Shown here one piece after another: positions 1 to 46,965 of a DNA stretch of 64,000 nt. The position numbers were made by a program, and so were the translations under genes. Each line of letters opens with the position of its first letter. The stretch's first letter is position 1. The stretch comes from Alphaproteobacteria bacterium bin52. GTDB lineage: Bacteria > Pseudomonadota > Alphaproteobacteria > Thalassobaculales > Thalassobaculaceae. A model generated the notes under the pieces. It searched no databases. It was not told where the DNA came from and worked only from the letters and a program-made list of their open reading frames with translations. The stretch lies in the NCBI GenBank assembly GCA_002238645.1, contig MPMT01000004.1, forward strand, positions 1-64,000, in the 5' to 3' direction.

Positions 1-471
1 CTTGGTGCGAGCCCGGCATGCGGGGCATTCCTTGACCTCGGCATCGACGCGGCGCTCGACGACCTCGAACACGATGTCGTAGAGGATGCGGCGTTCCCGG
101 TCGATCGCATCGACGTCTGCGAGGTCGCCGCCGCAGGCCTCGCAGGCCTCGACGGTGACCGTCTCCTCGATGGTGGTCTTGCGCAGACCGGTGCCGGTCT
201 GCAGGTTCTGCTTCGCGCCCTTGGGGCTGCTGGCGTCGCGCCGTGCAGTCTCATCCTTGTCCGTCTGCGACGGCGGGAGGCTGGAGTTCTTCGACCCCTT
301 GCGGGTCGTCCTTTCCAACAGGACGGTGATCAGGATACCCAACAGGGTGACGAGGAGGCGGACCACGGCATCGACTTCTGCGGACATCTTGCCGTGCGCG
401 CGCAATGCCTCGATGCGGGCCTTGGCGTCCTCGAACTCATCGCGCAGAGAGGCCGCATTCACCGTGGCCAT
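1..471 (-). CDS. IS66-family transposase, N-terminal part (runs off the window)
   Basis: The first 157 codons are visible and the rest lies beyond base 1. The sequence has the layout of IS66 TnpC proteins: a helical start, then a Ser/Pro-rich stretch (NSSLPPSQTD) after a basic segment, then a zinc-finger-like region with CEACGG and CPAC pairs. This is the zf-IS66 region that precedes the DDE catalytic domain. A hydrophobic segment (VRLLVTLLGILITVLL) lies where IS66 proteins have a coiled coil. The ATG overlaps the TGA of the upstream methylase gene by one base (TGATG), so translation is probably coupled. The usual IS66 partners TnpA and TnpB are not upstream; the methylase sits there instead. 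The family call is fairly safe, but activity cannot be judged because the catalytic part is missing. Confidence 0.75.
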   Translation of the reverse strand, partial: MATVNAASLRDEFEDAKARIEALRAHGKMSAEVDAVVRLLVTLLGILITVLLERTTRKGSKNSSLPPSQTDKDETARRDASSPKGAKQNLQTGTGLRKTTIEETVTVEACEACGGDLADVDAIDRERRILYDIVFEVVERRVDAEVKECPACRARTK

Positions 472-1133
472 CACGCGGCCTCCACCGCCATGACCGCCGC
501 CAGCACGGCGAGGCGCTCGCCCGGCGGCATCGCCCGGTAGCGCCGCGCCCAGCTGGCCGCATTGCGCTTGATGCGCTGACGATCGGTGAAGTTCCGGCCC
601 GCACAGCTGTGCCAGTGCACCCGGCCCGGGGCAAAGTTGAACCAGATCTTCTCCGTCACCACCCCGGCCTGGTTCATCACCTGAACCGACACGCTGTGCC
701 AGTCCGCCAGAACCCTCTCATAAAGAGCCGAGGGGTAGCCCGACACCATCACCGAACAGGGCAGGCCCCTGAGCAACTCAAGCAGGGCCTCGTGATCCGC
801 GTCGGTGTAGTCATACCGGTAGCGACGCTGCGACTTGCGGGTACTCATCAGATAGGGCGGATCACTGTAGACCAGTTCGTCCCCCTCGAACCGGTAGTCG
901 GCCAGGAACCGGTGGCAGCAGCCGTGAACCAGTTCCACCTCATGGTCGCAGCAAAACGTCCTGATGGACCGGGCATTCAGGTCAATGCCGATCGAGCGCA
1001 GTGCCGGGGGCTTGCGCTTCATGATCGCACCGCCCCCCAGGTGTGTTTCGAGATACACGCGATGGGGCGGCATCAGGCTGACAATGGCCTGACTGAGCCC
1101 CATCGTCGCCTTTGAACCATACCATGCGCCCAT
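471..1133 (-). CDS. D12-class (Dam-like) adenine-specific DNA methyltransferase
   Basis: 220 aa. The protein probably transfers a methyl group from S-adenosylmethionine to the N6 of adenine in DNA. The N-terminus (WYGSK, then HRVYLETHLGGGAIM at about residues 24-38) matches the SAM-binding region of D12 enzymes, and the catalytic motif DPPY is at 91-94. The length is short for the family (about 260-280 aa), so the target-recognition region is probably reduced. The start at 1133 has GGGGACGG upstream and begins directly before the WYGSK motif. The stop overlaps the start of the IS66-like transposase. No cognate restriction enzyme is adjacent; a broken endonuclease-like gene lies about 3 kb away. 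It may be an orphan methylase carried by a mobile element or prophage. Confidence 0.8.
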   Translation of the reverse strand: MGAWYGSKATMGLSQAIVSLMPPHRVYLETHLGGGAIMKRKPPALRSIGIDLNARSIRTFCCDHEVELVHGCCHRFLADYRFEGDELVYSDPPYLMSTRKSQRRYRYDYTDADHEALLELLRGLPCSVMVSGYPSALYERVLADWHSVSVQVMNQAGVVTEKIWFNFAPGRVHWHSCAGRNFTDRQRIKRNAASWARRYRAMPPGERLAVLAAVMAVEAA

Positions 1134-1253: not shown

Positions 1254-2522
1254 TCAGATCAACGCACCAGAACCCACAGCCAGCCGACGTTCCCGGCGCC
1301 ATTGGCATGCAAAACGCAACTCACCGGAAGGGGGGTGAGCAGTTACCGAATTCGTATCGTTCAGGGTCGTCGAAGTGATCCGGGTCTCATCAGCACTCGA
1401 CTGCGGCGCGAAAAACTGCCTGCGGAACACACCGACTTCGCTCCTCGCCGCCGTCGCGAGCGCCTCAACGTCATCGGGCAAGGCAAGACTTATGGTTTCG
1501 TTCTTTGGCCTCAGTCCAGGCTGCCAGGTTGCCTTTACTCGCGGTGCGGACTTGGGAGGAACCCTGAGGCCGCCCAAATCCTCCAGTTCTCGAGCTTCGA
1601 CAAGATAGAGCTCGAGATCAATCTTTCGTCCATCGGCGGAGCTGACCAGATCAACGGCATGATGAGCGAAGCACGCGTCGAGGTCCCACTCGACACGAGA
1701 GCCGAGATGGCCGCGCAAACACCGGAGCTCGAACCGAAAGAGTTTCTGGACGCCGGCATCAAGCCGCTCCCAGAAAATCGCCTTGTTGTGTTGGGTGGTA
1801 CGAACGAGAACACGCGGATCGTCCATGTCGGGGAGCTTGTCTGAGCCCGCGATGATCAATGCCTCGAAGCCGTCCGCGAACGCCGACATGAGATCGTGGC
1901 TGATGACCTCCTTGGAAAAGAGGCGCCGGTGCCAAGCCTTGAACATACGTATGGCGTGCGGGTGGTTCAGCCGGTCCTGCCACCTTGCGAAGAACTCGAC
2001 TTCCTCGTCCCTGGGCTCTCTTGGTACTGTGTCCTTCAAGTCCTTGAGAAGCTGTCGATCCTCGTCGGTGACGTCGTCGCCGTGGTTCCCTTCGATGAAG
2101 TCGAGGGTCTGGCCGCCCAGCTTGCGGCGCGTGGTCCTGCGCCCGCCAGAAAAGAGCGAAGAGCCAACACGGTCCCATGGGACGAATTTGCAGAAATTCT
2201 CCTGGCTCTCACGCCACGCACCCGGGCGGAGCTTGTGTTCGTCGTCGAGAAGAGCCCTCACAGCGTCGAGCGCTGCAAGGACGTTCTCTTCCCCTTGATG
2301 GTCGAACGACTCGACGGCGGTCCGTACGGCCTGTGTGTCCACAGGCTCCTGCTTGGGCGTCATTAGGCCAGCGAAGACGCCGACTTCGGTTTGCGCGAGT
2401 TGGAAGGCAGATCGGAAGTGCTGGGCACGCGCCTTCGGATTGCCAGCCTGCTTGTAGGCCGGGAGTTTCGTAATACCGTCGCGCGGAATTCTGAGCGCCG
2501 GTGCAGCATTCTGGATCCGCAA
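1254..2522 (-). CDS. hypothetical protein, possibly the N-terminal part of a larger protein
   Basis: 422 aa from a TTG codon, the first possible start after an in-frame TAG. I do not recognise the family. The protein is soluble, charged and mostly helical by eye, with no signal peptide or membrane segment. The last 30 residues (after TSTTLNDTNS) differ in character and are rich in Arg, so the frame may run into unrelated DNA and the gene may be truncated. It is divergent from the 466 aa ImmA/IrrE-like gene, with 98 bp between the starts. The setting, next to a DNA methylase and endonuclease debris, fits a defence or mobile-element region, but no function can be assigned. Its reality rests on the long open frame and protein-like composition. 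Confidence 0.5.
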   Translation of the reverse strand: MRIQNAAPALRIPRDGITKLPAYKQAGNPKARAQHFRSAFQLAQTEVGVFAGLMTPKQEPVDTQAVRTAVESFDHQGEENVLAALDAVRALLDDEHKLRPGAWRESQENFCKFVPWDRVGSSLFSGGRRTTRRKLGGQTLDFIEGNHGDDVTDEDRQLLKDLKDTVPREPRDEEVEFFARWQDRLNHPHAIRMFKAWHRRLFSKEVISHDLMSAFADGFEALIIAGSDKLPDMDDPRVLVRTTQHNKAIFWERLDAGVQKLFRFELRCLRGHLGSRVEWDLDACFAHHAVDLVSSADGRKIDLELYLVEARELEDLGGLRVPPKSAPRVKATWQPGLRPKNETISLALPDDVEALATAARSEVGVFRRQFFAPQSSADETRITSTTLNDTNSVTAHPPSGELRFACQWRRERRLAVGSGALI

Positions 2523-2620
2523 ATGGACCGGGACCGCAAAGCCCTGCTACGAAGGACGGCTAGTCAACCGCACGACAGGCTCCTACAAGGGGTATCCACT
2601 GGACGGGCCGGAGTGGTCGG

Positions 2621-4021
2621 ATGGTGTTTAGGGATGCCGGGACACGCATCGAGTTCGAATTTGACTGGATGAGTGCGCATGGAGTTGAGGGCCCTGAACT
2701 GGCGGCGACCTGGGCATCCCTTCGCATCCACGTGGGAGAGTCGACCATTACCAGGGTGCTCGATGAACGTTCCAGAACGATTCGAGACATGGTCTTTGTT
2801 TCACTTTACCCGCTCGCCGAATGGCTGGTCAGCAATTGGTGGTTTCTCCTGTACGAGTTTGAAAACCCCGACAAGGAGAACGATCGGGAATTTGATCGTC
2901 GACATTCCCTGAGGTTCGGTCGGGAAGGATATGGCTATCCTGACCTGCAGATTGTCTCTTCGGGACATCTGGTGCGTCTCGTGTGGAAGCGCGACGATCC
3001 CAACTGGTTCCGTCACGCAAGTCTTGAGCAGGGTTGGACGTGGATCGACAGAGCATCCTGGCACAAGAGTTGCGCAAACCTGATCGACAGTGTGATCGCT
3101 CGCCTTCATGAGTTCCACATTCACAATACACTGCTGGAACAGGACTGGTCGGCAATTCAGTCTGCTGACAAAGAGGAAACCGAATTCTGCAAGACGGCAG
3201 GCGGACTTGGTTGGGATCCGTACGCACTGAACGACGATGCACTCGCGTCTGTCGCGCGTTTGGGCGAAGTCCTGACGGGGGATGCTCTTGAAGAAGCGGC
3301 GGCTGTTTTTTCAGCGAAGAACCTCATCGCAGACATCGCCGACTTTCGGAAAGCCGTCGGACGTGCAAGACGAAACAGCCTCGGTCTCAAGAGGATCGTG
3401 ACCGAGGTTCTGCACAACGGGTTTGTGTCTGAAACTCGATCGGATCCAGACGCTGAGTTGACGTGGTATGCCGATGCCGGAATACAGGTGCCGCCCAATC
3501 CCTGGAAGGAGGGATATGCTCTGGCGCGAAGTCTGCGCCAGTCACTGGAACTTGGCAACGATCCGTTACCCACGTGGGATACTCTGGCACGTGCACTTGG
3601 GGAACCTCCGGAACAGGTAGAGAAGGCAACACGTCCCACATCTCTCGGCAACTTGCACATGTTGGAGGGCGTGATCTCCCGCGTTGATGACGGGAAATTC
3701 ACATTCGCTTTTTCGGCGAAGAGGGCAAGCAGCCGGCGATTCCTGTTTTGTCGTGCTCTGGCTGATGTCCGGGTGGCTTCAGAACCAAGCTCCGTGTTGA
3801 CCAGAGCCCGATCTTGGCGACAACAACGTGGCCGGGCCTTTGCGGCCGAGTTTCTGGTCCCGGCTCATGCAATTCGGAACAGAATATCCTCGCACGTCAT
3901 CCTGGCAGATGACATCGATCTGCTGGCCAGAGAGTTCGGCGTCTCATGGCTTGTCATCAGACACCAGGTCGACAACCACGATATTGCTCGAATCTGGTCA
4001 GAAGCCCGAAGTCACTGGTAG
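2621..4021 (+). CDS. protein with C-terminal ImmA/IrrE-like domain lacking HExxH
   Basis: 466 aa. The first 340 residues are unfamiliar: they include aromatic-rich stretches (EWLVSNWWFLLYEF near 65-80) and are mainly helical. The last 110 residues follow the C-terminal half of ImmA/IrrE (DUF955) metallopeptidases: GRAFAAEFLVPA, then DDIDLLAREFGVSW and a final helix. In that family the zinc motif HELGH precedes this part, but here the corresponding stretch reads RRFLFCRALADV, so the metal-binding histidines and glutamate are absent. It may therefore act as a sensor or binding protein rather than a protease. The start is the first ATG after an in-frame stop at 2561. By eye the base composition is less GC-rich than the flanking chromosome, which suggests transfer. 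The domain call is motif-based; the overall function is unknown. Confidence 0.6.
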   Translation: MVFRDAGTRIEFEFDWMSAHGVEGPELAATWASLRIHVGESTITRVLDERSRTIRDMVFVSLYPLAEWLVSNWWFLLYEFENPDKENDREFDRRHSLRFGREGYGYPDLQIVSSGHLVRLVWKRDDPNWFRHASLEQGWTWIDRASWHKSCANLIDSVIARLHEFHIHNTLLEQDWSAIQSADKEETEFCKTAGGLGWDPYALNDDALASVARLGEVLTGDALEEAAAVFSAKNLIADIADFRKAVGRARRNSLGLKRIVTEVLHNGFVSETRSDPDAELTWYADAGIQVPPNPWKEGYALARSLRQSLELGNDPLPTWDTLARALGEPPEQVEKATRPTSLGNLHMLEGVISRVDDGKFTFAFSAKRASSRRFLFCRALADVRVASEPSSVLTRARSWRQQRGRAFAAEFLVPAHAIRNRISSHVILADDIDLLAREFGVSWLVIRHQVDNHDIARIWSEARSHW

Positions 4022-4891: not shown

Positions 4892-6067
4892 CTACTCCGC
4901 TGCTGCCGACGCCGGCTTGCGGAACGCGGGCATCACTCCTTCCGCCACCCGGTGGTACTGCTCGAGCATCATCTGCTCCGGCGTTCCCATCGGACACGAA
5001 AGGTTGATCAGCTCCATTCCCGGGTAGCGCGCCTCCAGCGTCTTCAGGTGCTCGACCAGCTGTTCGGCGGTTCCGGCAAACCAGGCGCCGAGATCCATGA
5101 AGTGCTGCACCCGCGGTACGCCGGCCTCGTACCAGCCGCCTCGACCCTGGGTGATGGAGACCTGCTCCGGTGTCAGTCCGGGAACAAAGCCGAGCGGCCC
5201 GAACATCTTCACGTGTTCCTCGTAGAGCGGCGTGATTTCCTCGAGCGCCTGCTCCGGCGTGTCGGCGAGGTGGCAGAAAATGCCCACGGTCAGGTTCTCG
5301 CCCAGTGCCAGCTCCTGGCCGGCGCGGGCGGCGGCATCCCGGTAGGCCTGAATCGGACCGTCCGACATGGTCGCAGCACCCCCGCCGACCGCACCCTTGA
5401 TGCCGTGACGGATCATGAAGTCGAGCCCGCGCGGGTTGGCGCTGACCACAGGCTGCCAGCATTCCACCGGCAGGTTGACCGGACGCGGCACCAGGGTGAT
5501 TTCCTCAAGCTCGTAGCCGCGGTAGGGGACCCGTGGCGGCAGGGTGTAGTGCTGGCCCCGGTGCGAGAAGGACTCCTGATTGAAGGCCTTGAACATGATC
5601 TCGACCTGTTCCTCGAACAGGTCCCGGTTGGCGGTCTGGTCCTGCATCGGGGCGCCGAAGGTCTCGACCTCGCGGGTGTGGTAGCCGCGGCCGACGCCGA
5701 AGACGGTCCGTCCCCCGGTGAGCACGTCGGCGGTGGCAAAGTCCTCGGCCAGACGCAGCGGATGCCACATCGGGGTGATGTTGAAGCCGCAGCCGATTCT
5801 GAGCCTGGGTGTGACATGCGCGAGATGGACCGCCATCATCAGGATGTTCGGAATGACCTCGTAGCCCTCGTGCTGGAAATGGTGCTCGGCCAGCCACAGC
5901 ATTTCGTAGCCGCAGGCGTCCATGGTCTTCGCGATGTTCTCGGTCTTGGCGAAGACGCTGGCCAGGTGGTCGTTGTCGTAGCGACGTTCGTTCGCCGGCG
6001 TTGTGTGCTGGCCGATATCCGGCAGGTCGACGTGACCGGCATAGACGGTGGTAAACTTGCTGATCAT
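4892..6067 (-). CDS. LLM-class flavin-dependent oxidoreductase
   Basis: 391 aa, full length for bacterial luciferase-like monooxygenases, which use reduced flavin and O2 to oxidise organic substrates in the cytoplasm. Family marks are WLAEHHF (58-64), IGCGFNITPMWHPLRLAEDFATADVLTGGR and GVGRGYHTREVETFG in the N-terminal half, and a SANPRGLDF region followed by a late domain with TAEQLVEHLKTLE. It follows the SDR gene by 33 bp on the same strand, so the two are probably co-transcribed and may act on the same substrate. The substrate cannot be read from sequence. The start codon lies just ahead of the conserved beta strand. Confidence 0.85.
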   Translation of the reverse strand: MISKFTTVYAGHVDLPDIGQHTTPANERRYDNDHLASVFAKTENIAKTMDACGYEMLWLAEHHFQHEGYEVIPNILMMAVHLAHVTPRLRIGCGFNITPMWHPLRLAEDFATADVLTGGRTVFGVGRGYHTREVETFGAPMQDQTANRDLFEEQVEIMFKAFNQESFSHRGQHYTLPPRVPYRGYELEEITLVPRPVNLPVECWQPVVSANPRGLDFMIRHGIKGAVGGGAATMSDGPIQAYRDAAARAGQELALGENLTVGIFCHLADTPEQALEEITPLYEEHVKMFGPLGFVPGLTPEQVSITQGRGGWYEAGVPRVQHFMDLGAWFAGTAEQLVEHLKTLEARYPGMELINLSCPMGTPEQMMLEQYHRVAEGVMPAFRKPASAAAE

Positions 6068-6100
6068 TCTCCGACTCCTGTCATGTAAGGGGCGACAGGC

Positions 6101-6901
6101 CTACTGCGCTGTCACGCCGCCGTCGATCACCAGTTCGCTGCCGGTGACCCAGGAGGACTCGTCGCCCGCGAGATACAGGCAGCCGAGCGCTATGTCACGC
6201 GGCGTTCCGAAGCGACCGAGCGGTGTGGCGGCGAGCCGGACCCGGGCGACCTCGTTGTTCGAATGGCCCGGTCGCGTCATCGGCGTGTCGACGAAACCCG
6301 GGTGGATGGAATTCGCCCGGATACCGTCAACTGCATGCTGGACCGCCGTCGCCTTGGTGAAGATCCGTACAGCTCCCTTGGAAGCGTGGTAGACGGCGTT
6401 GCCGAAACTGCCGACCAGACCGCAAATCGACGAGATGTTGATGATCGACCCGCCGCCGGAACTGCGCATCGGCGGTATCGCGGCCCTGGTCCCCAGGTAG
6501 ACGCCGGTCACGTTGACCGACATCACCCGCTCCCAGATCTCGGGCGTGGTGTCCTCGATGGTCGGTCCCGGCGTGATCGTGGTCTGCAGCGCCATCGCCG
6601 GATCGCGGCCGGACACGCCGGCGATATTGCCGAGCACGTGCAGCCCGCCCCACAGCGAGACCGTGTCCGCGACTATCTCCTCCCAGGCTCCGGCATCGAC
6701 CACGTCGAGACGCTTCCAGACCGCCTCGCCGCCGGCCGCGGCGATCCCGGCGACAACATCTTCACCGAGTTCGTCCTGGACGTCGGCGACCACGACCCTG
6801 GCTCCCTCGGCGGCAAAACAGCGCGCGGTTTCCGCGCCGATACCCGAGGCGCCGCCGGTCACGATCGCGACCTTGCCCTCAAGCCGTGTGCCGGATGCCA
6901 T
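6101..6901 (-). CDS. SDR-family NAD(P)-dependent oxidoreductase
   Basis: 266 aa. A classical short-chain dehydrogenase that interconverts alcohols and ketones with NAD(P). The Rossmann motif TGGASGIG is at 15-22, an acidic residue after the second strand (VVADVQDE) favours NAD, the NAG-like motif is NIAGVSG, and the catalytic YHASK is near 171. The C-terminus ends in VTGSELVIDGGVTAQ as is typical. A longer frame opens 14 codons upstream, but the start at 6901 has GGAGGA seven bases before it and begins right at the SDR fold. Divergent from the GMC oxidoreductase (219 bp between), and upstream of the LLM gene. Confidence 0.87.
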   Translation of the reverse strand: MASGTRLEGKVAIVTGGASGIGAETARCFAAEGARVVVADVQDELGEDVVAGIAAAGGEAVWKRLDVVDAGAWEEIVADTVSLWGGLHVLGNIAGVSGRDPAMALQTTITPGPTIEDTTPEIWERVMSVNVTGVYLGTRAAIPPMRSSGGGSIINISSICGLVGSFGNAVYHASKGAVRIFTKATAVQHAVDGIRANSIHPGFVDTPMTRPGHSNNEVARVRLAATPLGRFGTPRDIALGCLYLAGDESSWVTGSELVIDGGVTAQ

Positions 6902-7120
6902 GCGCTCCTCCTCCAAGCTGTCCTGATGCTCTGCAGGCTCCATCCCTATCGGCTTGCGCCTGCCGTGTCACCCGTGTTCGCGCGGCGGCCCGTCCGCCGG
7001 GGCGACCATCCGGGGCATGATGACAACGAGAAACCTGCGAAGCGCAATTCCATTGCCGGCGTTTTGCGGGCAGTCTTGTGCGCTGGCCTTGATAGCGACA
7101 GCGGGAGGGACGGAAAGGCG

Positions 7121-8731
7121 ATGGCATACGATTACATCATCATCGGGGCAGGATCCGCCGGGTGCGTGATGGCGAACCGCCTGAGCGAGGATCCGGGGAC
7201 CAGCGTGCTGCTGCTCGAGGCCGGAGGCAAGGACACCAACCCGTGGATCCATATCCCGGTCGGGTTTACCCGAACGCTCAACAACCGGAAGGTCAACTGG
7301 TGTTTCGAGACCGAACCGGACGAGGCGCTGGCGGGGCGGACCATCCCGATCCCGCGTGGACGGGTGCTGGGGGGATCGAGTTCGATCAACGGCATGCTCT
7401 ACGTCCGCGGCCAGGCCTTCGACTACGACGTCTGGGCCCAGCTCGGGAACCGCGGCTGGTCGTATACCGACGTCCTTCCGTATTTCCGCAAGGCGGAATC
7501 CTTCGAACGCGGCGGCGACGAGTACCGCGGGGACGGCGGGCCGATGAACGTGGCCGACATGTACGAGCGCCACGAGATCGTCGATGCCTTCATCGAGGCC
7601 GGAGAGGAACTCGGCTATCCGCGCAACCCCGACTACAACGGCGCCAGCCAGGACGGATTCGGCTACTACCAGATAACCCAGCGCAATGGCCGGCGCGAGA
7701 GCACGGCCCGCGCCTTCCTGGACCCGGTGCGCGGCAGGCAGAACCTGCGGATCGAGCCGAATGCCCATGTCACCCGCATCGAAATGGAGGGAACGCGGGT
7801 CACCGGTGTGACCTGGTCGCAGAACGGCCAGTCCCGTACCGAGACCGCGAACCTCGAGGTCGTCGTATGCGCCGGTGCGGTGCAGTCGCCGCAGATCCTC
7901 GAACTGTCCGGCATCGGTCAGCCGGAACTGCTGCGCGAACACGGTATCGAGGTCCGTCATGCCCTGTCCGGCGTTGGCGAGAACTACCGCGACCACTATG
8001 CCGCGAGGATGAACTGGCGGGTGAACCGGCCGATCACCCTCAACGAGCAGACCCGCGGGCTGCGGCTGGTCGGCGAGGTCGCGAAGTATGTTCTCACCCG
8101 ACGCGGCGCACTGACCTGGACGGCCGGTATCGGTCACGGATTCGTCCGAACCCGGCCGGAACTGGAGACACCTGACATCCAGTTCTTCTTTGCCCACGCC
8201 AGCTTCGGCTCGATCCGGGACCGGGTGCTCGAACGCGAGCCCGGCATGACGCTTGCGGTCTACCAGTGCCGTCCCGAGAGTGTCGGCTCAATTCATCTCG
8301 GCGGCCCGGACCCGTTCGCGGCGCCGAAGATCCATCCGAACTTCCTGACGGTGGAACTCGACCAGCAGACCCTGGTCTCGGGCCTGCACGTGTGTCGGGC
8401 GCTCGGCCAGACCAGGGCACTCGGACGCTACATCGACCACGAAATGAACCCGGGAGCGGACTGCGTCAGCGATGCCGATATGCTGGCGTTTGCGCGCGGG
8501 ACCGGCGCGACGACCTACCACCCGATGGGAACCTGCAAGATGGGTCATGACCCGATGGCGGTGGTCGACGACAGGCTCAGGGTCCATGGTCTCGAGGGTC
8601 TGCGCGTCGTCGACGCCTCGATCTTTCCGACCATGCCGTCGGGCAACATCAACGCGCCGGTGATCATGGCGGCGGAGAAGGGCGCCGACATGATCAGGGA
8701 GGACCGCCAGGCACGCGCCGCCGCGGCCTGA
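7121..8731 (+). CDS. GMC-family FAD-dependent oxidoreductase (choline dehydrogenase-like)
   Basis: 536 aa, normal size for the glucose-methanol-choline family, which oxidises primary alcohols with FAD. The FAD-binding motif IIIGAGSAGCVMANRL is at 6-21, followed by the GMC signature GRVLGGSSSINGMLYVRG near 82-99, a second signature with GAVQSPQILELSGIG, and the C-terminal catalytic His/Asn pair in HPMGTCKMG and GNINAP. The open frame extends far upstream, but ATG 7121 starts the Rossmann strand and has GGGAGGGA about 12 bases upstream. Neighbours do not include betaine aldehyde dehydrogenase or a choline transporter, so a generic alcohol dehydrogenase is safer than BetA. Confidence 0.87.
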   Translation: MAYDYIIIGAGSAGCVMANRLSEDPGTSVLLLEAGGKDTNPWIHIPVGFTRTLNNRKVNWCFETEPDEALAGRTIPIPRGRVLGGSSSINGMLYVRGQAFDYDVWAQLGNRGWSYTDVLPYFRKAESFERGGDEYRGDGGPMNVADMYERHEIVDAFIEAGEELGYPRNPDYNGASQDGFGYYQITQRNGRRESTARAFLDPVRGRQNLRIEPNAHVTRIEMEGTRVTGVTWSQNGQSRTETANLEVVVCAGAVQSPQILELSGIGQPELLREHGIEVRHALSGVGENYRDHYAARMNWRVNRPITLNEQTRGLRLVGEVAKYVLTRRGALTWTAGIGHGFVRTRPELETPDIQFFFAHASFGSIRDRVLEREPGMTLAVYQCRPESVGSIHLGGPDPFAAPKIHPNFLTVELDQQTLVSGLHVCRALGQTRALGRYIDHEMNPGADCVSDADMLAFARGTGATTYHPMGTCKMGHDPMAVVDDRLRVHGLEGLRVVDASIFPTMPSGNINAPVIMAAEKGADMIREDRQARAAAA

Positions 8732-8740
8732 CGGGAGCCA

Positions 8741-11386
8741 CTACGCGGCGCCGAGCCTGCGCAGGGCCTCCTTCAGCTGCTCGCGCTTCTGGCGTTCGGC
8801 GGCCAGGCGCTGCCGGTTGGTGTCCAGCACCTCGCGCGGCGCCCGGTCCCGGAACGCCGGGTTGGCAAGCTTGCGTCTCAGCCCGGCAATGCCGCTTCGC
8901 GCCTTGGCAAGATCCCTGGAGAGCCGAGTTCGTTCCCGGTCGAGATCAATGATGTCGGCAAGCGGCAAGACCAAGGTTGCCTCGTCGAGCAGGCTCTGTG
9001 CCGCGCCGTGCGGAACCTGGCCGGTGAGCGGGCTGATGGATGCGAGCCGTGCGAGGCGCATGATCATGGTTCGGTGGGTATCGAGACGGGCGAGCGTGTC
9101 CGCCGAGGCACCTTCGAGGAACAGGTCGACCTCGGCGCGGGGCGGCACGTTCATTTCCGAACGGATTGAGCGCACTTCCGTGATCAGGCGAATCACCCAG
9201 TCCATCTCGTGTGCAGCCCCGGCATCGACGGTGAGCCGGTCGAGGTCCGGCCACGGGGTGGTGATGAGCGCCGCCTTCCCTCCGAGCCGTTCCCACAGTT
9301 CCTCGGTCAGGTACGGCATCAGTGGATTGAGTACGTTCAGCATCTGCTGAAGCACCCAGGCACTCGTCGCACGGGTCTCGGCTGCCGCCTCCTCGTTCTC
9401 GCCGGCCAGCAGCGGTTTGGTGAACTCGAGGTACCAGTCGCAGAAGATGTTCCAGCAGAACCGATAGACCGAACCGGCCGCCTCGTTGAACCGGTAGGAC
9501 TCGATGGCGCCGGCGACCTCGCGCGAAACCCGGGCGGTCTCGCCCACGATCCAGCGGTTGACCGTGTGGCTACACTCCGCCGGGTCCCAGCTGTCGACCG
9601 GGGCACAGCCGTTCATCATGGCGTACCGGGTCGCGTTCCACAGCTTGGTGGCAAAGTTGCGGTAGCCCTGGATCCGTCCTTCGGCCAGCTTGATGTCACG
9701 GCCCTGGGCCGCCATGGCCGCCAGGGTGAAACGGAGTGCGTCGGTGCCGTAGGTGGCAACCAGGTCCAGGGGATCCATCACGTTGCCCTTGGACTTCGAC
9801 ATCTTCTGTCCGTGCTGGTCGCGCACCAGTGCGTGGATGTAGACGGTGTGGAACGGCACCTCGTTCATGAAATGCATGCCCATCATCATCATCCGCGCAA
9901 CCCAGAAGAAGATGATGTCGAACCCGGTGACCAGGACGTCGCCCGGGTAGTAGCGCCCCAGCTCCCCCGTGCGTTCCGGCCAGCCCAGGGTGGAGAACGG
10001 CCACAGCGCCGAAGAGAACCAGGTGTCGAGGACATCCTCGTCACGGACCAGATCCCGGTCCTCGCCATAGTGGGCCCGGGCCGCGGCACGGGCCTCCTGC
10101 TCTGTCTGTTCCACGAACACGGTGCCGTCCGGACCGTACCAGGCCGGAATCTGATGTCCCCACCACAGCTGGCGCGAAATGCACCACGGCTGGATGTTGC
10201 GCATCCACTCGAAGTAGGTGTTCTCCCAGTTCTTCGGCACGAACCGGGTGCGCCCGTCTTCGACCGCCTCGATGGCGGGACGCGCGAGGGTGGCGGCATC
10301 GCAGTACCACTGGTCGGTGAGCCAAGGCTCCAGCGGCGCGCCGGACCGGTCGCCATGCGGAACCGCATGAACGGTGGACTCCACCTTCTCAAGCAGGCCC
10401 AGAGCCTCCATGTCGCTGATCACCTGCTCACGGGCCTCGTAGCGGTCAAGCCCGCGGTATGGCTCAGGCACGGCGTCGTTGAGACGTGCGTGCCGGTCAA
10501 AAATGTTGACCAGTTCGAGCCCGTGGCGGCGGCCGACCTCGAAGTCGTTGAAGTCGTGGGCCGGAGTCATCTTGACCGCTCCGGTCCCCTTCTCCATGTC
10601 GGAGTACTCGTCAGCGACGATGGGTATCACCCGTCCCACCAGCGGCAGGACGGCGTTGCGCCCGACCAGGTCGCGGTAACGCGGGTCGTCGGGGTGAACC
10701 GCGACACCCGTGTCCCCGAGCATGGTCTCGGGCCTGGTGGTTGCGACGGTGATGAACCGGTCCGGCTCGCCCTCGATGGGGTAGCGGAAGTACCACAGCG
10801 AGCCCTGGACCTCGACCTGCTGCACCTCCAGGTCCGAAATTGCCGTAAGCAGCACCGGGTCCCAGTTGACCAGGCGCTTGTCCCGGTAGATCAGGCCCTG
10901 GCGATGCAGATCGACAAAGACCCGCGTGACGGCCGCGGACAGGCCCTCGTCCATGGTAAACCGTTCCCGGCGCCAGTCGGCGGTCGCCCCGAGCGAGCGA
11001 AGCTGGCGCATGATCATGCCGCCGGACTCCGCCTTCCATTCCCAGACCGTGTCGACGAAGCGGTCGCGTCCAAGGTCGCGCCGGTCGACGCCCTTCTCTG
11101 ACAACTGGCGTTCGACCACCATCTGGGTCGCGATCCCGGCATGGTCCATGCCGGGCTGCCACAACGCATCCCGGCCGGCCTTGCGGTGATAGCGGATCAA
11201 GATGTCCTGCAGGGTGAAGGTGAGCGCGTGACCCATGTGCAGGCTGCCGGTCACGTTCGGCGGCGGCATCATGATCGTATACGGCGCCATGTTGGAGTCG
11301 ACATGTGCCTCGAACGCTCCAGCTTGCTCCCACTGGCTGTAGTGCCGGGCCTCAAGCGCAGTCGGGTCGTAGGTCTTCTCTAGCAT
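8741..11386 (-). CDS. valS: valine--tRNA ligase
   Basis: 881 aa. A class I aminoacyl-tRNA synthetase charging tRNA-Val. The HIGH motif is HMGH at 50-53 within PPPNVTGSLHMGHAL. The editing domain follows (TTRPETMLGDTGVAVHP), and KMSKSKGN lies near 528. The anticodon-binding domain leads into a C-terminal coiled coil (DLDRERTRLSRDLAKARSG ... REQLKEALRRL) that is typical of ValS. It is the last gene of the pcm - tolC - popZ - valS block and converges on the GMC gene with only 9 bp between stop codons. Confidence 0.97.
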   Translation of the reverse strand: MLEKTYDPTALEARHYSQWEQAGAFEAHVDSNMAPYTIMMPPPNVTGSLHMGHALTFTLQDILIRYHRKAGRDALWQPGMDHAGIATQMVVERQLSEKGVDRRDLGRDRFVDTVWEWKAESGGMIMRQLRSLGATADWRRERFTMDEGLSAAVTRVFVDLHRQGLIYRDKRLVNWDPVLLTAISDLEVQQVEVQGSLWYFRYPIEGEPDRFITVATTRPETMLGDTGVAVHPDDPRYRDLVGRNAVLPLVGRVIPIVADEYSDMEKGTGAVKMTPAHDFNDFEVGRRHGLELVNIFDRHARLNDAVPEPYRGLDRYEAREQVISDMEALGLLEKVESTVHAVPHGDRSGAPLEPWLTDQWYCDAATLARPAIEAVEDGRTRFVPKNWENTYFEWMRNIQPWCISRQLWWGHQIPAWYGPDGTVFVEQTEQEARAAARAHYGEDRDLVRDEDVLDTWFSSALWPFSTLGWPERTGELGRYYPGDVLVTGFDIIFFWVARMMMMGMHFMNEVPFHTVYIHALVRDQHGQKMSKSKGNVMDPLDLVATYGTDALRFTLAAMAAQGRDIKLAEGRIQGYRNFATKLWNATRYAMMNGCAPVDSWDPAECSHTVNRWIVGETARVSREVAGAIESYRFNEAAGSVYRFCWNIFCDWYLEFTKPLLAGENEEAAAETRATSAWVLQQMLNVLNPLMPYLTEELWERLGGKAALITTPWPDLDRLTVDAGAAHEMDWVIRLITEVRSIRSEMNVPPRAEVDLFLEGASADTLARLDTHRTMIMRLARLASISPLTGQVPHGAAQSLLDEATLVLPLADIIDLDRERTRLSRDLAKARSGIAGLRRKLANPAFRDRAPREVLDTNRQRLAAERQKREQLKEALRRLGAA

Positions 11387-40871: not shown

Positions 40872-41249
40872 TCAGTCGCGGCTCCGGAAGCGATAGTCCG
40901 GCCGGGTATGGGGCGTCTGCCGGTAGGCGTTCGCATCAGTGCACCGGATTTCCCGCCACAGTCGCAGTGCCAGGTCGAACTCGCGCTCCGCCAGGGCCAC
41001 CACGGCGAGCAGTTCCAGGGACGCACGCGACCTGTGAAGGTGACATGCCCGTTCGGCATATGCCCGTGCCTTGCACATGTCTTCCGGTCCGGAAGCCCTG
41101 GACACTTCGCGGGCGCCACGCTGTCGCCACCATGCCGCAGTTCGTTCCACTGCCCGCATCTCGCGCAGATCGGTGTTGCAACGACGGCAGAACAGGTCCT
41201 CGACGGCCCGGGTGCCACAGGTCGGGCATTGAAGCGCCACCTGACTCAC
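40872..41249 (-). CDS. zinc-ribbon protein of the accessory Hsp70 cassette
   Basis: 125 aa. The N-terminal zinc ribbon is CPTC (8-11) and CRRC (21-24). It is followed by about 90 residues of helices ([59 protein letters not shown]), which look like two TPR-type pairs. Its start ATG overlaps the Hsp70 stop (ATGA), so it is the coupled last gene of the cassette. It may be a client or membrane adaptor for the chaperone; function unknown. Confidence 0.65.
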
Positions 41250-42994
41250 TCCAGGTAGAACAGGATCTCGTCAAGGTTCTGGCGGATCATTTCCGCATCA
41301 TCGCTGCGCCTCTCGCTCACGGCATTCCTCGCCTGCGCGATCAGAGCCGAGATCTCCTCACGATCGGCGGTGGACGCGTCATCGAGGATTCGCGTGGCCC
41401 GCATCAGGGTGTCTTCCATAGCCTCAGATGCGGTGCCGGACGCGGCGTCAGCGTCGCTGCTCACGGAGGCGTCCGCCAGTGGTTGCCAGAGCGTCTCGAG
41501 ACGCTGGCGAGAGGCTTCGATAGCGTCACGATCATTCAGGGCGTTCTCGACCACACCGTTGATCTCTCGACCTGTCGCCCGTTCCACCAGATGGATCTTC
41601 AGCAGCCCATCAAGATCGAGATGATAGGTACACAGCAGTCCCTGCTCGTACGCAGCCTCGCTCTGCAACAGTCCCTCGAACAGGAACGACCCGATTTCGA
41701 CATTCTTCAGGGCATCGGGATCCTCGCCTTGATAGATCTTGAATTCGACACTGTGCTGCTCTTCGAACATCTTGAAGAACGGTTCGGTCCTGCTCGCGGG
41801 CAGTCTGCTGTTACGTCGGATGAGAGGAACAAACTGGTGCGTGTAGGGTTGGCCGTAGAGCTCACCGACCATGCTGGTACCGAAGGTATACGGCGTGACG
41901 TCGACCAAGACCGCCTCCATATCCAGGCCCATCTCCATTCCGGCCTGAACTCCCGCACCAAGTGCGACACAAAGGTCCGGATCGATTTCGCCGTGAGGTT
42001 CTTGGCCCAGACGCTCGGCCAAGAGCCGCGTGACGCGCGGAATGCGCGTCGATCCGCCAACCAGCAGGACACGGTCAAGTTGGCTGGGGCGCACATCGGC
42101 ATCGTTCAGCGCCATGGTGACGGATCGCATGGTCTTGGACAGCAGCTCATCGATGCCGTGTTCGAATTCGGCCTGGTCAAGTTCGAGGGACAGATGCTTC
42201 GCCTCACCGTCGATCACGGCGACGTGATCTTCCTCGATCCGCACATAGGGCTGGTCTGACAGCTCGATCTTGGCCTGTTCGGCAGCCCGACGCAGTCGTG
42301 CCTGTACGACCCTGTCGTCACCGACTTCGGCCTTACCCATGTCCTTGAGCTCCTGGTTGAGCCTGTCGACAATGATCTGGTCAAAGTCGTCACCGCCCAG
42401 ATGGTTGTCTCCGGTGGAGGAGAGCACTTCGACCACCCCGTCCTCGATCTGCACGACCGAGACGTCGAAGGTTCCGCCACCGAGGTCGTAGACCAGAACT
42501 TTGCGAGTATCCTCTCCGCCGCCTTCGTAGCTGAGGGCTGCGGCAGTGGGCTCGTTGATGATCCGCACCACATCAAGCCCGGCAATCGCGCCTGCCTCCC
42601 GAGTGGATTGTCGCTGCACGTCGGTAAAGTATGCCGGAACAGTAATGACCGCCCTGCCGACATCATGGCCGAGTGCACGTGAAGCCCTCTCGCGCAATGC
42701 CTTGAGAATGAAGGCCGAGATCTCCTGCGGCAGATACGTGCCGGAGCCCATGGCGATCGGCTCGGCAGAGCCCATGAGGCGCTTGACGGAAACAACTGTC
42801 CTGTCGGGCGCCGCTGCCCATTGGTTGCGGGCTTGTTGTCCGACGATGATGGCGCCCGCTTCATCCACTCCGACACATGAAGGCAACAGTGCCTCACCGC
42901 CTTCACGCACAACCTCTGGCCTGCCATTGCGTACGATTGCCACCTCGGAGTTCGTAGTGCCAAGATCGATTCCGATGATCGTTTCCGCGTTCAT
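41246..42994 (-). CDS. Hsp70-family chaperone (accessory DnaK/HscC-like)
   Basis: 582 aa, shorter than DnaK (about 640). ATPase that binds exposed peptides. The phosphate-1 motif IDLGTTNS is at 9-16, NEPTAAAL near 146-153, [15 protein letters not shown] near 170-184, and the adenosine motif [11 protein letters not shown] near 306-316. The substrate-binding beta domain begins [11 protein letters not shown]. The C-terminus is a coiled coil with no lid extension like DnaK's EEVD-type tail. AGGAAGG precedes the start. Fourth gene in the cassette; 22 bp after grpE-like, and coupled to the zinc-ribbon gene. It is not the housekeeping DnaK (no dnaJ beside it in the usual order). Confidence 0.9.
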
Positions 42995-43016
42995 TCAGAC
43001 TGACCTTCCTGTTATG

Positions 43017-43673
43017 CTAAAGGCGGTTCACGATGACTTCCGCAAGCTGCAGCACTTCATCGCCGCGGATGTACCCGCACTGCAGTTCCTCCACCACAAA
43101 CCCGTCGGGAACATTGTCGATCCGACGAGCTTCCACAGCATGCATGACGCGTGGATCAAACAGCTTTCCGATGGTTTCGAGGCGAACGACGCCAAATCCG
43201 GAAAGCATGCGATCAAAGCGTCGAAGTGCAATTCCGTAGCCTTCGGCCACGCCGTCGATGCCGCGCGGGTGCCGGACCAGGAACCCGCGACGTTTACTGA
43301 CCTCCTCCGCCGCCGCCAGGCCCCGCGCCAGGACGTCGTACAGATCTAGCATCGAGCGCAGACACCGGTTTTCGGCGGCGCGGGTCGTACGCTGTTCGAA
43401 GGCCGTCAGCTCGCGCCCGTGCACCGTCATCGACTCGACCGCCGTATCGTAGCGCTCCACTGCCCGCGCGAGTTCCCGTCCGGCCTTTGCCTGTTCGCGG
43501 TTTTGCAGGCGAAGTTCCTGACGCAGGGCCGCGAACTCCGCGTAGAGATCTCTCAGATCCGGTTCCGGAGGGGACGGCTCGAAACCTGTCGCATCAGCCT
43601 GGCTGCAGGCATGGATCCAGCACCGGAAATCGTCGAGGATCCCGTCCTTCCAGTCGGTGACCGGTTCAGTCAT
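43017..43673 (-). CDS. GrpE-like nucleotide-exchange factor
   Basis: 218 aa. A long N-terminal helix (DLYAEFAALRQELRLQNREQAKAGRELARAVERYDTAVES) as in GrpE, then a helical bundle around LDLYDVLARGLAAAEEV and a C-terminal beta wing: VRLETIGKLFDPRVMHAVEA, then GFVVEELQCGYIRGDEVLQLAEVIVN, matching the GrpE pattern (FDP.xHxA, GY.xGDxVLRxAxV). It would release ADP from the Hsp70 downstream. Its start overlaps the J-protein stop by eight bases. Sequence is divergent from housekeeping GrpE, so it is probably dedicated to this Hsp70. Confidence 0.8.
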   Translation of the reverse strand: MTEPVTDWKDGILDDFRCWIHACSQADATGFEPSPPEPDLRDLYAEFAALRQELRLQNREQAKAGRELARAVERYDTAVESMTVHGRELTAFEQRTTRAAENRCLRSMLDLYDVLARGLAAAEEVSKRRGFLVRHPRGIDGVAEGYGIALRRFDRMLSGFGVVRLETIGKLFDPRVMHAVEARRIDNVPDGFVVEELQCGYIRGDEVLQLAEVIVNRL

Positions 43674-43971
43674 CCCGAAGCCCTTCCGCCACCAACAGTG
43701 ACTGAAGGCCAGTGGTCAGGTGCCGTTCCCCACGTGCCTTGAGCAGCGCATCGAGCGCCAGTTCGCAATCCTTGTACTGGCCAATACCGTACAGGGCCGA
43801 GTGCACGCGGGAACGTTCGTCACTCAGCGCCTCCCAGGCCGTCATGATCTGCTGAGCGCGATCCGGTTCCCGGCTTGGAGGGTGGGCACGGATCAGGGTG
43901 AGGTAGCGTTTCCTGATCTCCTGGCGCGAAGCGGTGGGCGGAAGACCAAGGACAAGATAGGGCATCAGCAT
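43666..43971 (-). CDS. short J-domain protein with HPP in place of HPD
   Basis: 101 aa from ATG 43971. The helix I/II pattern MPYLVLGLPPTASRQEIRKRYLTLIRAHP fits a J domain, and helix III is AQQIMTAWEALSDERSRVHSALYG. The loop that is HPD in J proteins, and is essential for ATPase stimulation, reads HPP here (30-32), followed by SREPDR. An alternative start (TTG 43983) lies four codons upstream. HPP-type J proteins are seen beside Hsp70/GrpE operons, so this may be a working variant, but that is an inference. The remaining 40 residues are helical with no G/F or zinc-finger region. Confidence 0.75.
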   Translation of the reverse strand: MLMPYLVLGLPPTASRQEIRKRYLTLIRAHPPSREPDRAQQIMTAWEALSDERSRVHSALYGIGQYKDCELALDALLKARGERHLTTGLQSLLVAEGLRDD

Positions 43972-44114
43972 CGCAGCTTCCAACGGTCGACAATGTACTC
44001 GGGGAAGAGAAACAGGCGACTTCCCCCATCAGCCAGGCATCCAGACCGGCATCCCTCACCGTGCGCATGATCGCGTCCGCGCAGGGCCGATTCCGGATAT
44101 CTTTCCTCGATCTG

Positions 44115-46505
44115 TCAAATAAAATTCGCAAGTTCCTCGGCGAATACGTCGTACGCCATCGGACCGAAGAGGTCCGGATCGGGGTATTCGAGCCCATCGA
44201 AGTTGAAACTGAGCAGAGCCTCACGCAGTCTGCCGCTTGCCCGGCGTGCCATGCGCGCCGCACACGTCCTCAGTGTCTCACGCTCGGACGGGCTTGCACC
44301 ATCAAGGGCTTCGCGGAAACGCTTTGAGTTCCAGTCGTCACCAGACTGGTAGCGGATCACCGCCAGATACAGCAGGAGTGGCCGGTTGCGCTCGCCCTCG
44401 TCCGCGCTGGTCAGTCGGCGCGTGATCTCGGAGCGGACCACTGGACTGACGTTATCGCACTCAAGCAGGGTATCGAAGGCGTCCAGCAGCTGATCACCGT
44501 CCAGCCGAATCAGGATCGCGGGCCAGCAGTGGCGCAGGATCGGCGCGATGTTGAGTCTCTTGTAGAGAACCTGAAGGTCACGGGCCAGCGGGGTAATCAG
44601 CCCGGCCGCCTCGCTGGCGTCGAGGCCGTCGATGACTGCCGCCTTCGCGGCCAGCATGCGGCGCAGTCCGGCCGCCATTTCCGGTAGCACGATGTGTAGG
44701 TGGCTGTTCTCGTCCAGATCGTGGATCAACAGGACCAGCATCCTGATCTGGCCGGAAGGCGCAAGTCGTTCGATATGTGGCGCTGCAATGGCGACCGCAT
44801 CTCCGCTGGATGACACGATCTCCAGCAGAATGCGCTTTGCGGCGATAATGTCGGCGAGCCCTGATCGGTTCAGCGCCGCCGCCCGATCGATGTCCCGGTC
44901 CGCCAGTTCGAACCGTCCGCGGTTACGGCTCCGGTCAGAGGAGTTGAGGAATCCCGTGGCCTGCATGTCCAGTATGCGCTCGTCATACGGAGCCCGGCGC
45001 CGTGCCTCCCTCAGAGAGGTTTCGGCGCGGCGGTGTGCATTGGACGAAAAATGCAGCCGGGTCAGTTCGACATGGGGTTCGGCATCCTCGGGAAACTGGG
45101 CCGCCATGCGTTCGAGCACGTTCCGCTTGCGCGCCTTCTCCGCGTTTCCCCAACCGGGAAGGTCGATCAGGAACCGGTATCCGTCCCGGTTGTCGGGATC
45201 GGCGGCGAGGCTCGATTCCATCAGGTCGGCACAGAGCGAAAGCCCCTCATTCGGCTGGTGTCCCAGCAATTTCGACACTGTTTTCTTCATACTGGGGGAC
45301 AGCATATAGATCCTTCTGGAGCGACGGCCGATTCTGGCGAGAGTATCGAACACTCTGGCCCGAACCAGGTCGTGGTCTGTCTGGAACGGGAACTCCGTCG
45401 GAAGGCGGGAAAGGAGAATTTCCGCAGGAGCAGGGTTCCAGGCGATCAGATCCGCTTGCTGAAGTGCGTGGTCAACCCGTGCCAGTACACCCAGCACCCG
45501 CTTCGGCGGCAGGGTCCGCTGCGCCAGTTCGGACACGGTGTGCGGAGCAATATATTCCTGCGCGGCGGCGATACCCGCAATCGTGATCAGATCCACTAGG
45601 GCCGGAACCGGATCGTCAGGGCAGAGCGCCCGTGCCAGGCGGTTGGAGAGGTCGATGATGGTACGCGGGCGTCCGTTCCTCTTCAGGAGGGCGCAGAGGT
45701 CCCGGCCCAGCCTGGATATGGTGATGCTGTCCGTGCCCAGCGCCGCCTGTACCCGTGCAGATCCCTCCCGGCCGCCGCCCCGTCCACTGACGCGACGGAG
45801 TTCGGCGAGAGTATCGGCAAGGACGAAGTCGTCGGGAAGCTCGTCGAGAAACCCGGCCAGCGCCCTGTTGTCACCGTCGCTGTATGAACTCATCGCGCCG
45901 CAGAACAGGCTCCAGGCGCGGTAGGGAGACTGCGGCGGCAGGCGACGCAGTTTTTCGGTGCAGGAGTGCCAGTCACCACGATCCATGGCCTCGACACTGC
46001 CGATGACATCGTCTGCGTTCCGCTTCAGTGCAGTATTCTCGTCGAGCGCAGCGAGCGCATCCCAGCACCGGTGGATCACCAGTTGATCGGCCAGACAGCG
46101 CTCGATATCGCTATTCGACGCCCCCGACTGTCCTGACGCCGCATACGCAGCGATCGCGTCACTTCCCTCAAGGTGCTTCAGATAAAGGTGCAGATCCTCC
46201 TCGCCCAGATGGTCGGCACGAACGGCCCCGCGGTGTTCCGCCGCCCGTGAGCGCATGAGTGTCGCTTCCCTTTTCTGACCCTGCCGGTCGAATTCCCGCG
46301 CCCTGCGAGTGAACGCGCAAAATCGCAGCAAGGCGCTGTCGAGACTTTCGTTCTTGCCGGCCGGAAGCCGTTTCAATACAGCAAGGGTGGCCCGTGCATC
46401 GTTGCGGTGAAAGAGCCGTCGCGCTTCCCGAATGACGTCGGCGTTGGTCTTCAGTACCGGGGTCTTTTTCCGGTTCTTTCCGCGATTCCTGTTTCGTGCT
46501 GCCAT
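44115..46505 (-). CDS. large helical-repeat (TPR/HEAT-like) protein of the Hsp70 cassette
   Basis: 796 aa. First gene of the cassette. After a basic tail (MAARNRNRGKNRKKTP) the sequence is almost all helix. Two weak TPR-like zones are seen: residues 25-110 (DARATLAVLKRLPA ... EFDRQGQKREATLMRSRAAEHRG) and 440-560 (NVLERMAAQFPEDAEPHVELTRLHFSSNAHRRAETSLREARRRAPYDERIL). No signal peptide or membrane segment. I recognise no named family. Large TPR proteins often act as a client-binding or scaffold component next to Hsp70s; here the only support is the operon. The start has only a weak ribosome site (GGCGGTCCGGA). Confidence 0.75.
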   Translation of the reverse strand: MAARNRNRGKNRKKTPVLKTNADVIREARRLFHRNDARATLAVLKRLPAGKNESLDSALLRFCAFTRRAREFDRQGQKREATLMRSRAAEHRGAVRADHLGEEDLHLYLKHLEGSDAIAAYAASGQSGASNSDIERCLADQLVIHRCWDALAALDENTALKRNADDVIGSVEAMDRGDWHSCTEKLRRLPPQSPYRAWSLFCGAMSSYSDGDNRALAGFLDELPDDFVLADTLAELRRVSGRGGGREGSARVQAALGTDSITISRLGRDLCALLKRNGRPRTIIDLSNRLARALCPDDPVPALVDLITIAGIAAAQEYIAPHTVSELAQRTLPPKRVLGVLARVDHALQQADLIAWNPAPAEILLSRLPTEFPFQTDHDLVRARVFDTLARIGRRSRRIYMLSPSMKKTVSKLLGHQPNEGLSLCADLMESSLAADPDNRDGYRFLIDLPGWGNAEKARKRNVLERMAAQFPEDAEPHVELTRLHFSSNAHRRAETSLREARRRAPYDERILDMQATGFLNSSDRSRNRGRFELADRDIDRAAALNRSGLADIIAAKRILLEIVSSSGDAVAIAAPHIERLAPSGQIRMLVLLIHDLDENSHLHIVLPEMAAGLRRMLAAKAAVIDGLDASEAAGLITPLARDLQVLYKRLNIAPILRHCWPAILIRLDGDQLLDAFDTLLECDNVSPVVRSEITRRLTSADEGERNRPLLLYLAVIRYQSGDDWNSKRFREALDGASPSERETLRTCAARMARRASGRLREALLSFNFDGLEYPDPDLFGPMAYDVFAEELANFI

Positions 46506-46965
46506 TTTCCGGACCGCCTGATTTCAGTACGTTCGGTGCACCTGAGCCACAGGGCACCCGCCCGCACCATGCTACAAAGTTCGAAAGGCGGCACAATGAC
46601 AGGTTATCGTCAACCGGGCCCATCGGTCGTGCCCGCTCCTGTGGGGACGGGGTTCGGCGCGCTGAGGACGACGGGCCGGACATCGCGTCACCAACCTGAC
46701 GACTGAAGGGTCAGGGTACCCGCGCGTTAAGCATTTCACAAGCCCCTGAAATCTTTCATCTTCCGAGCCTCTTGCAAGATTGCGAGCTCAGATTGGTGGG
46801 AGACACACTGACCGGTCTTCATGGAGGTGGTTGGCGGCGATTTTTCGTTCCTGGCCGCGCATCCGGGGCCTGATCTGGCGGATGTGGCCCGATTCGGCAG
46901 AATCCGGGCGGGGGTGACCGCTGCTTGCGCGGGAAGCGACCGGAATCGGTTTGCAGACGGGAAGT
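46506..46965 (-). other. intergenic stretch between the broken transposon and the Hsp70 cassette
   Basis: 460 bp. It should hold the promoter of the cassette, whose first gene starts at 46505. A segment at about 46730-46790 is locally AT-richer (catttcacaagcccctgaaa). One end of the broken transposon is probably here: CAGATTGG at 46789-46796. No coding frame was recognised. Confidence 0.4.

Follow-up and report, generated by a model that had tools for sequence, protein, structure and literature searches.

An ImmA/IrrE-like protein with a replaced zinc site in Alphaproteobacteria bacterium bin52, a likely antitoxin-like half of a two-gene cassette whose small partner gene is truncated

Genes and features at the contig start

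The window analysed here is a stretch of 64,000 nucleotides of Alphaproteobacteria bacterium bin52 (assembly GCA_002238645.1, contig MPMT01000004.1, positions 1 to 64,000); since it starts at contig base 1, the left flank is cut off. The features near this end are listed in Table 1. The open reading frame of P0001 was unbroken over all 466 codons, and in a genome-wide search of its own 4.2-Mb genome this locus was the sole match. No HTH match was obtained in the Pfam scan of P0001, the NCBIfam scan assigned no family to P0001 or P0002, and sequence searches of the PDB gave no credible match.

Table 1. Coordinates of the features at the P0001 locus (window positions).
Feature	Position	Strand	Basis or remark
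P0001 ORF, 466 aa, ATG start	2621..4021	+	ORF list, predicted-structure fold comparison, family alignments
N-terminal domain of P0001, residues 8-158	2642..3094	+	Fold similar to CdiI of B. dolosa and Whirly; motif PLYPLAEWL.NWW
M78/ImmA-IrrE-like domain, residues 289-466	3485..4018	+	CapP Z 11.1, PprI Z 8.6, IrrE Z 8.5; M78 in 56/84 aligned proteins
HExxH site, here R-A-L-A-D (378-382)	3752..3766	+	Alignment, 111 rows and two HExxH rows
Q401, at the column holding E in two HExxH relatives	3821-3823	+	Alignment
Small partner gene, truncated 3' tail (~35 codons and stop)	2524..2631	+	Profile positions 94-128 of 131 (2524-2628), E 7.3e-7
P0002, 422-aa ORF	1254-2522	-	ORF list; gene fragment
sspH fragment (residues 183-583 of 1810), main body of P0002	1341..2546	-	PADLOC SspH, homology to Falsirhodobacter SspH
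Repeat supplying the last ~30 codons of P0002	1209..1347	.	Shares 139/140 bases with another contig, G000:C69
D12-class adenine methyltransferase gene, 220 aa, neighbour only	471..1133	-	Family scans

The GC content over 1-4 kb was 0.56-0.60, against about 0.65-0.70 for most of the window, and we infer that this segment is acquired DNA. Another low-GC stretch was seen at 41001-47000 (0.61-0.64), perhaps also acquired. At the left end, window 1-474 on the minus strand held a 158-aa open frame that extends past the contig start; it matched DUF6444 weakly (E 6e-4, below the cut-off), and we take it to resemble the N-terminus of an IS66-type transposase.

The first-pass annotation had set P0001 beside a divergent gene of 422 aa. 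This reading frame, P0002, does exist, and it is only a fragment of a gene. It matched the SspH model of PADLOC (E 2.9e-33), and homology to SspH of Falsirhodobacter extended from window 2546 to 1341 with 59-60% identity (59% over 395 columns for the 422-aa ORF). What is left here is an internal piece, residues 183-583 of 1810, and not a full-length FtsK-like SspH in an ssp operon; P0001 is unrelated to SspH. The SspFGH proteins of SspABCD-SspFGH are described as a phosphorothioation-linked anti-phage system (PMC8092258). No further match to P0002 besides the repeat was found in its own genome. The sspH homology joins the stump of the small partner gene at about 2524-2546, where a misassembly may be present.

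The C-terminal domain and its replaced zinc site

The AlphaFold model of P0001 had a mean pLDDT of 91.6 and a pTM of 0.89. In this model residues ~289-466 superposed on CapP with Z 11.1 (rmsd 3.9, 159 aligned) and on IrrE/PprI with Z 8.2-8.6, and Foldseek also placed CapP at the top, with a modest E of 0.0059 and nothing at E <= 0.001. The Pfam M78 profile (PF06114) gave P0001 only 18.1 bits at residues 402-449 (E 0.0025), under the cut-off of 22. It matched 56 of the 84 aligned proteins at E <= 0.01 (best 3.3e-9), and the relative P0008 passed the gathering score with 29.0 bits. Considering the matches of these relatives and the superposition on CapP and IrrE/PprI, the M78 assignment is sound despite the sub-threshold score of P0001. 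The ImmA/IrrE-type C-terminus lacking HExxH, as first read from the sequence, held.

ImmA/IrrE domains are usually viewed as proteases that release repressors or antitoxins. P0001 reads F374-L-F-C-R378-A-L-A-D382 at the zinc site, and HExxH is absent. The family was compared in an alignment of 111 rows, window included, which leaves out L130 and L133 and contains a few identical or near-identical rows (e.g., L006 and L014, L090 and L091); most rows came from 80 loci picked via the pattern RAFAAE[FML][LI]xP, which selects columns 405-414 and not 378, 382 or 401. In this alignment R378 was found in 110 rows and Q401 likewise in 110, column 382 held D or E in 104 and H in two, and HExxH occupied the catalytic columns in 0 of the 111. 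In these rows R-x-x-x-(D/E)...Q stands in place of H-E-x-x-H...E, and P0001 keeps the conserved R378, D382, Q401, R405, E410 and P414. An HExxH string lying off the catalytic columns was present in L081, L086 and L087.

Sequencing error was considered as a cause of the missing motif and rejected, since the site is replaced family-wide; homologues with an intact HExxH, which the first-pass annotation had named as evidence of such an error, were not among the 111 rows. Judged by its sequence, P0001 is no zinc peptidase. The relative on plasmid pTM2 of Tistrella mobilis is annotated as 'ImmA/IrrE family metallo-endopeptidase' and yet has no HExxH.

The N-terminal domain

Residues 8-158 of the model resembled CdiI of Burkholderia dolosa (5ffp_A; Z 7.0, rmsd 3.6, 122 aligned), then Whirly (4koo, Z 5.0), PURA (4.9) and CdiI of E. 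cloacae (4ntq_B, 4.8); Foldseek gave E 0.057 for 5ffp. The Z of 7.0 is moderate and lower than what the comparison tool regards as secure, and a CdiI/Whirly-like fold of these residues is likely. The earlier statement that the first 340 residues were unlike anything known has to be withdrawn in this part. Two A. caldus plasmids carried the N-terminal domain without the M78 part, one of them beside a piece of the small gene.

The small partner gene

Through comparison of the relatives, we found that the true partner is a gene of ~130 codons overlapping the 5' start of the P0001-homologue genes. The overlap was mostly 4-26 nt, and a few pairs abut or have a short gap. The small protein has the conserved motifs YxGSxEHK, C in xCPR, FPRYVW, EARLVN and GEYKGYPL. 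This conserved gene had been overlooked when the 422-aa ORF was chosen as partner, and in the window it is truncated: a complete pair is not present, the stump overlaps the P0001 start by 11 nt, and the open frame 2458-2631 has no in-frame ATG, GTG or TTG.

With the small protein alone as query, 17 of 398 genomes of the phylum matched, and the big gene lay directly downstream in 17/17 (in L130 the contig ends within it). The class search matched 8 of 385 genomes, namely six with full-length small matches adjoining the big gene, the window stump, and a weak match in G371 (L112). One of the six, G380, had a second, broken copy (L113), a remnant of both genes. A strong big-protein match was found in 7/385 class genomes, and 7/7 have the small gene, truncated in that of the window. 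The cassette is sparse in the class. In the pTM2 relative the small partner gene (L006, 5649-6014) is not listed in the gene table of the plasmid.

No Pfam model was found for the small protein. Its predicted structure was of modest quality (pLDDT 75.3), with one helix and then four strands; HigB, CdiA-NC101 and RelE matched it best, all weakly (Z 2.7-2.9; Foldseek E at least 0.6). CdiA-CT of NC101 has been classed as a BECR toxin (PMC9086364). A search of viral contigs with the small protein gave nothing useful.

Distribution and genomic context

By the tool's own test, 431 stretches of the genome collection encode P0001 relatives, the best 80 of which were retained. As in type II toxin-antitoxin systems, two overlapping co-directional genes were found together across distant genomes. 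The tree of 93 rows (15 without a named phylum; L040 and L051 left out) covered 17 phylum-level groups and had 32 label changes against the least possible 16. Such changes are consistent with transfer, and binning of MAGs may also mix labels.

No conserved third gene was revealed among 228 neighbour ORFs (at least 150 aa) scanned around 77 loci, the number being 232 minus L065:7847-9181, a copy of the big gene, and three ORFs of L090 that repeat those of L091. A fixed third gene or a single defence system as the context was rejected, as no Pfam or PADLOC family matched more than three proteins in one part of the neighbour set (115 proteins) or two in the other (113). The neighbour families listed included the defence-type families GajB, BrxL, PglZ, DndD, DarG, SspA/DndA and methylases, with no background rate and no enrichment claimed. 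In a Massilia plasmid the cassette is located downstream of dptFGH on the same strand. The first-pass annotation had suggested a mobile-element control or defence module; a patchily spread two-gene cassette fits this suggestion, and the 422-aa gene has no place in it.

Phages as the main carriers were also rejected, with no match in the phage collection and three loci in viral contigs. These three (L116, L117 and L118) are IMG/VR contigs labelled viral, each with a complete cassette. A Chromatiaceae contig (L065) contained three cassette copies or remnants close together, at 1185-1738, 5343-7290 and 7832-9181.

Divergent relatives that keep HExxH

Two far relatives, L019 (G216) and L144 (G091), keep HExxH and have E at the Q401 column. 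The simplest history would be an HExxH-type ancestor and then one replacement; the rooting is unsure, since the two outgroup rows sit on long branches. The N-terminal-domain HMM matched L019 (E 9e-15), an A. caldus protein (7e-27) and P0009 (4e-6), and failed to find L144 (0.052) or L112 (0.47), which are tied to the family only via each other and via their small partners.

L112 (1408-2575) and L144 (83-2007) compose a second, divergent subfamily of the pair, with small proteins 42.5% identical; one member carries an intact HEICH. The HExxH-type relative P0011 matched 17 of 289 class genomes. Among the matches listed, all except that in L019's own genome covered the M78 part only, and only L144 had a match to the small gene upstream. 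Against plasmids, phages and viral contigs the HExxH-type relative matched in its M78 part only, or gave nothing.

Proposed role of P0001 and alternative explanations

We consider it reasonably likely that P0001 belongs to a two-gene cassette of toxin-antitoxin type as its antitoxin-like half, a pseudo-protease antitoxin that is orphaned here. In the intact cassette the small protein of ~130 aa is encoded first, its gene overlapping that of the big protein, and would probably be the toxin, which might be an RNase with a RelE/CdiA-type fold. The CdiI/Whirly-like N-terminal domain of the big protein would most likely bind and block it, and the M78 domain, lacking zinc ligands, would most likely serve, without proteolysis, as a sensor or a DNA-binding regulator. 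In the bin52 genome, the rearrangement that brought in the sspH fragment would have removed the first ~70% of the toxin gene, with an intact orphan antitoxin as the outcome, which might keep an anti-addiction role.

It is somewhat unlikely that in this genome P0001 is no more than a decaying, functionless remnant, an explanation compatible with the module reading for the relatives. The partner gene is truncated and the flanks are an sspH fragment and a repeat. Compared with its nearest relative (67% identity), P0001 had a dN/dS of 0.23 (NG86) or 0.30 (YN00), values that mostly integrate the time preceding the loss of the partner. Against decay are the 466 codons without a stop, these same ratios, the six conserved residues kept from R378 to P414, and a branch length like the relative's. 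Considering the dN/dS together with the branches in the tree (0.21 for P0001 and 0.16 for the relative), the gene seems to have been maintained until recently, and its sequence gives no clear sign of decay.

Which half of the cassette might be toxic was approached through the decay of the two genes. The 15 small-picked loci classified comprised 12 with both genes full, three with a broken small gene beside a full big gene and none with a full small gene beside a broken big gene; the number of loci is small, some apparent breaks may be MAG frameshifts, and for L133, which is cut at the edge of its stretch, the state was taken from L135, the second record of that locus. In the big-picked set of 83 rows, 61 had both genes full; in 18 the big gene was full and the small gene either broken (12) or undetected (six); one row lay at a contig edge, and three had a partial big gene. 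The 18 become 17 without L040, where a full small ORF runs on into the big gene; as the set was picked on the big gene, it alone cannot prove the asymmetry. Read by eye, some of the 'undetected' small genes showed stumps or pieces. The counts leave out same-locus duplicates and rows with big-gene E > 1e-20, which removes L130. A counter-example is L112, with a full small gene and a big gene that is truncated but retains its N-terminal part.

On a plasmid of Rhizobium etli IE4771 (L009, 5138-7101), a TumE gene (29.2 bits, cut-off 23.4) occupied the place of the small gene, and downstream of it a winged-helix domain was fused to a P0001-like protein, an apparent partner swap. TumE is described as a toxin that targets translation, validated by experiment, and TumA as its antitoxin (PMC10584680). 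Four indirect lines, namely the asymmetric decay, the CdiI-like N-terminal domain, the TumE swap in Rhizobium and the weak fold matches to HigB, CdiA and RelE, favour the small protein as the probable toxin.

We regard it as distinctly unlikely that the roles are reversed or that no toxin-antitoxin pair exists, the big protein then being an effector or defence regulator and the small one its inhibitor or co-factor. The big protein is indeed large and multi-domain, ImmA/IrrE domains are known as regulators, with CapP and PprI as the top matches here, and some cassettes lie near Dnd/Ssp, BREX, Gabija or other defence genes. However, broken small genes recur next to intact big genes, an outcome that a toxic big protein would not permit, and the neighbours vary by locus.

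The resemblance of the N-terminal domain to CdiI of B. dolosa and E. cloacae would also suit a protein that gives immunity to a delivered, CDI-like toxin instead of an intracellular antitoxin. This is highly improbable, since the small gene comes first, overlaps and is a free-standing ORF, and no CdiA/Rhs gene was annotated adjacent in four plasmid contexts. A module of P0001 and the 422-aa protein, as the divergent adjacency in the window had suggested, deserves almost no credence and was rejected, because the 422-aa ORF is an internal SspH fragment ending in a repeat and tblastn over 137 loci (flanks mostly 1.5-6 kb) returned only its own copies, two co-fetched sspH genes and the repeat, with no copy beside any other P0001 relative searched.

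Comparison with known systems

The reading of P0001 as an antitoxin has its closest parallel in RosmerTA, in which an antitoxin with an ImmA domain (RmrA) is combined with diverse RmrT toxins (PMC10440598). The P0001 relatives share with it the two-gene cassette, the ImmA-type domain in the probable antitoxin, varied partners and, as described there, a phage-defence setting (PMC10440598). Such a cassette with an ImmA/M78 gene was found in the relatives, while in the window the partner is truncated. The RmrA profile of PADLOC touched P0001 residues 404-458 with E 0.026, too weak a match for an RmrA-type assignment. The N-terminal domain is CdiI/Whirly-like, in contrast to the small HTH often described in the RosmerTA group; the zinc site is replaced in the P0001 family (111 rows), and the small partner belongs to another family. 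Because of these three differences the P0001 cassette was not filed as a RosmerTA member. In 2009, Xre-COG2856 proteins had been linked to RelE and PIN toxins (PMC2701414), and by analogy the P0001 cassette probably works like RosmerTA and the Xre-COG2856 systems.

The fold of residues 289-466 is that of CapP (CBASS) and of IrrE/PprI (COG2856/M78), but P0001 has no HExxH, and Q replaces the third E. The toxin-first order of TumE-TumA is seen in Rhizobium etli IE4771, with TumE before the winged-helix/P0001-like fusion; the small protein of the main family differs, as no TumE (PF20126) match was listed among 60 members scanned. From CdiI, P0001 differs in sequence (12% identity over 122 residues for B. 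dolosa), in its fusion to an M78-like domain and in the lack of CDI genes in the contexts read. We found no description of the P0001/small-gene pair in the literature searched, and one may exist; in NetFlax, a pruned, unresolved lineage adjoining its ImmA zone, as presented in PMC10440598, might include it.

Significance of the cassette

The annotation 'ImmA/IrrE family metallo-endopeptidase' need not mean a peptidase. A large, multi-phylum set in which the catalytic site is swapped for equally conserved residues offers a system where the reuse of a protease domain as a sensor can be tested, and the small protein adds a probable toxin family without a Pfam model. More tentatively, and we lean slightly against it, the pair may represent an unnamed widespread toxin-antitoxin family whose antitoxin, originally a metallopeptidase, became a non-catalytic ligand or DNA sensor, apparently through a single exchange of the zinc site, with R-x-x-x-(D/E)...Q kept in 17 phylum-level groups and two divergent lineages retaining HExxH and a related small partner. 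If true, one module would show proteolytic toxin control turning into control by binding.
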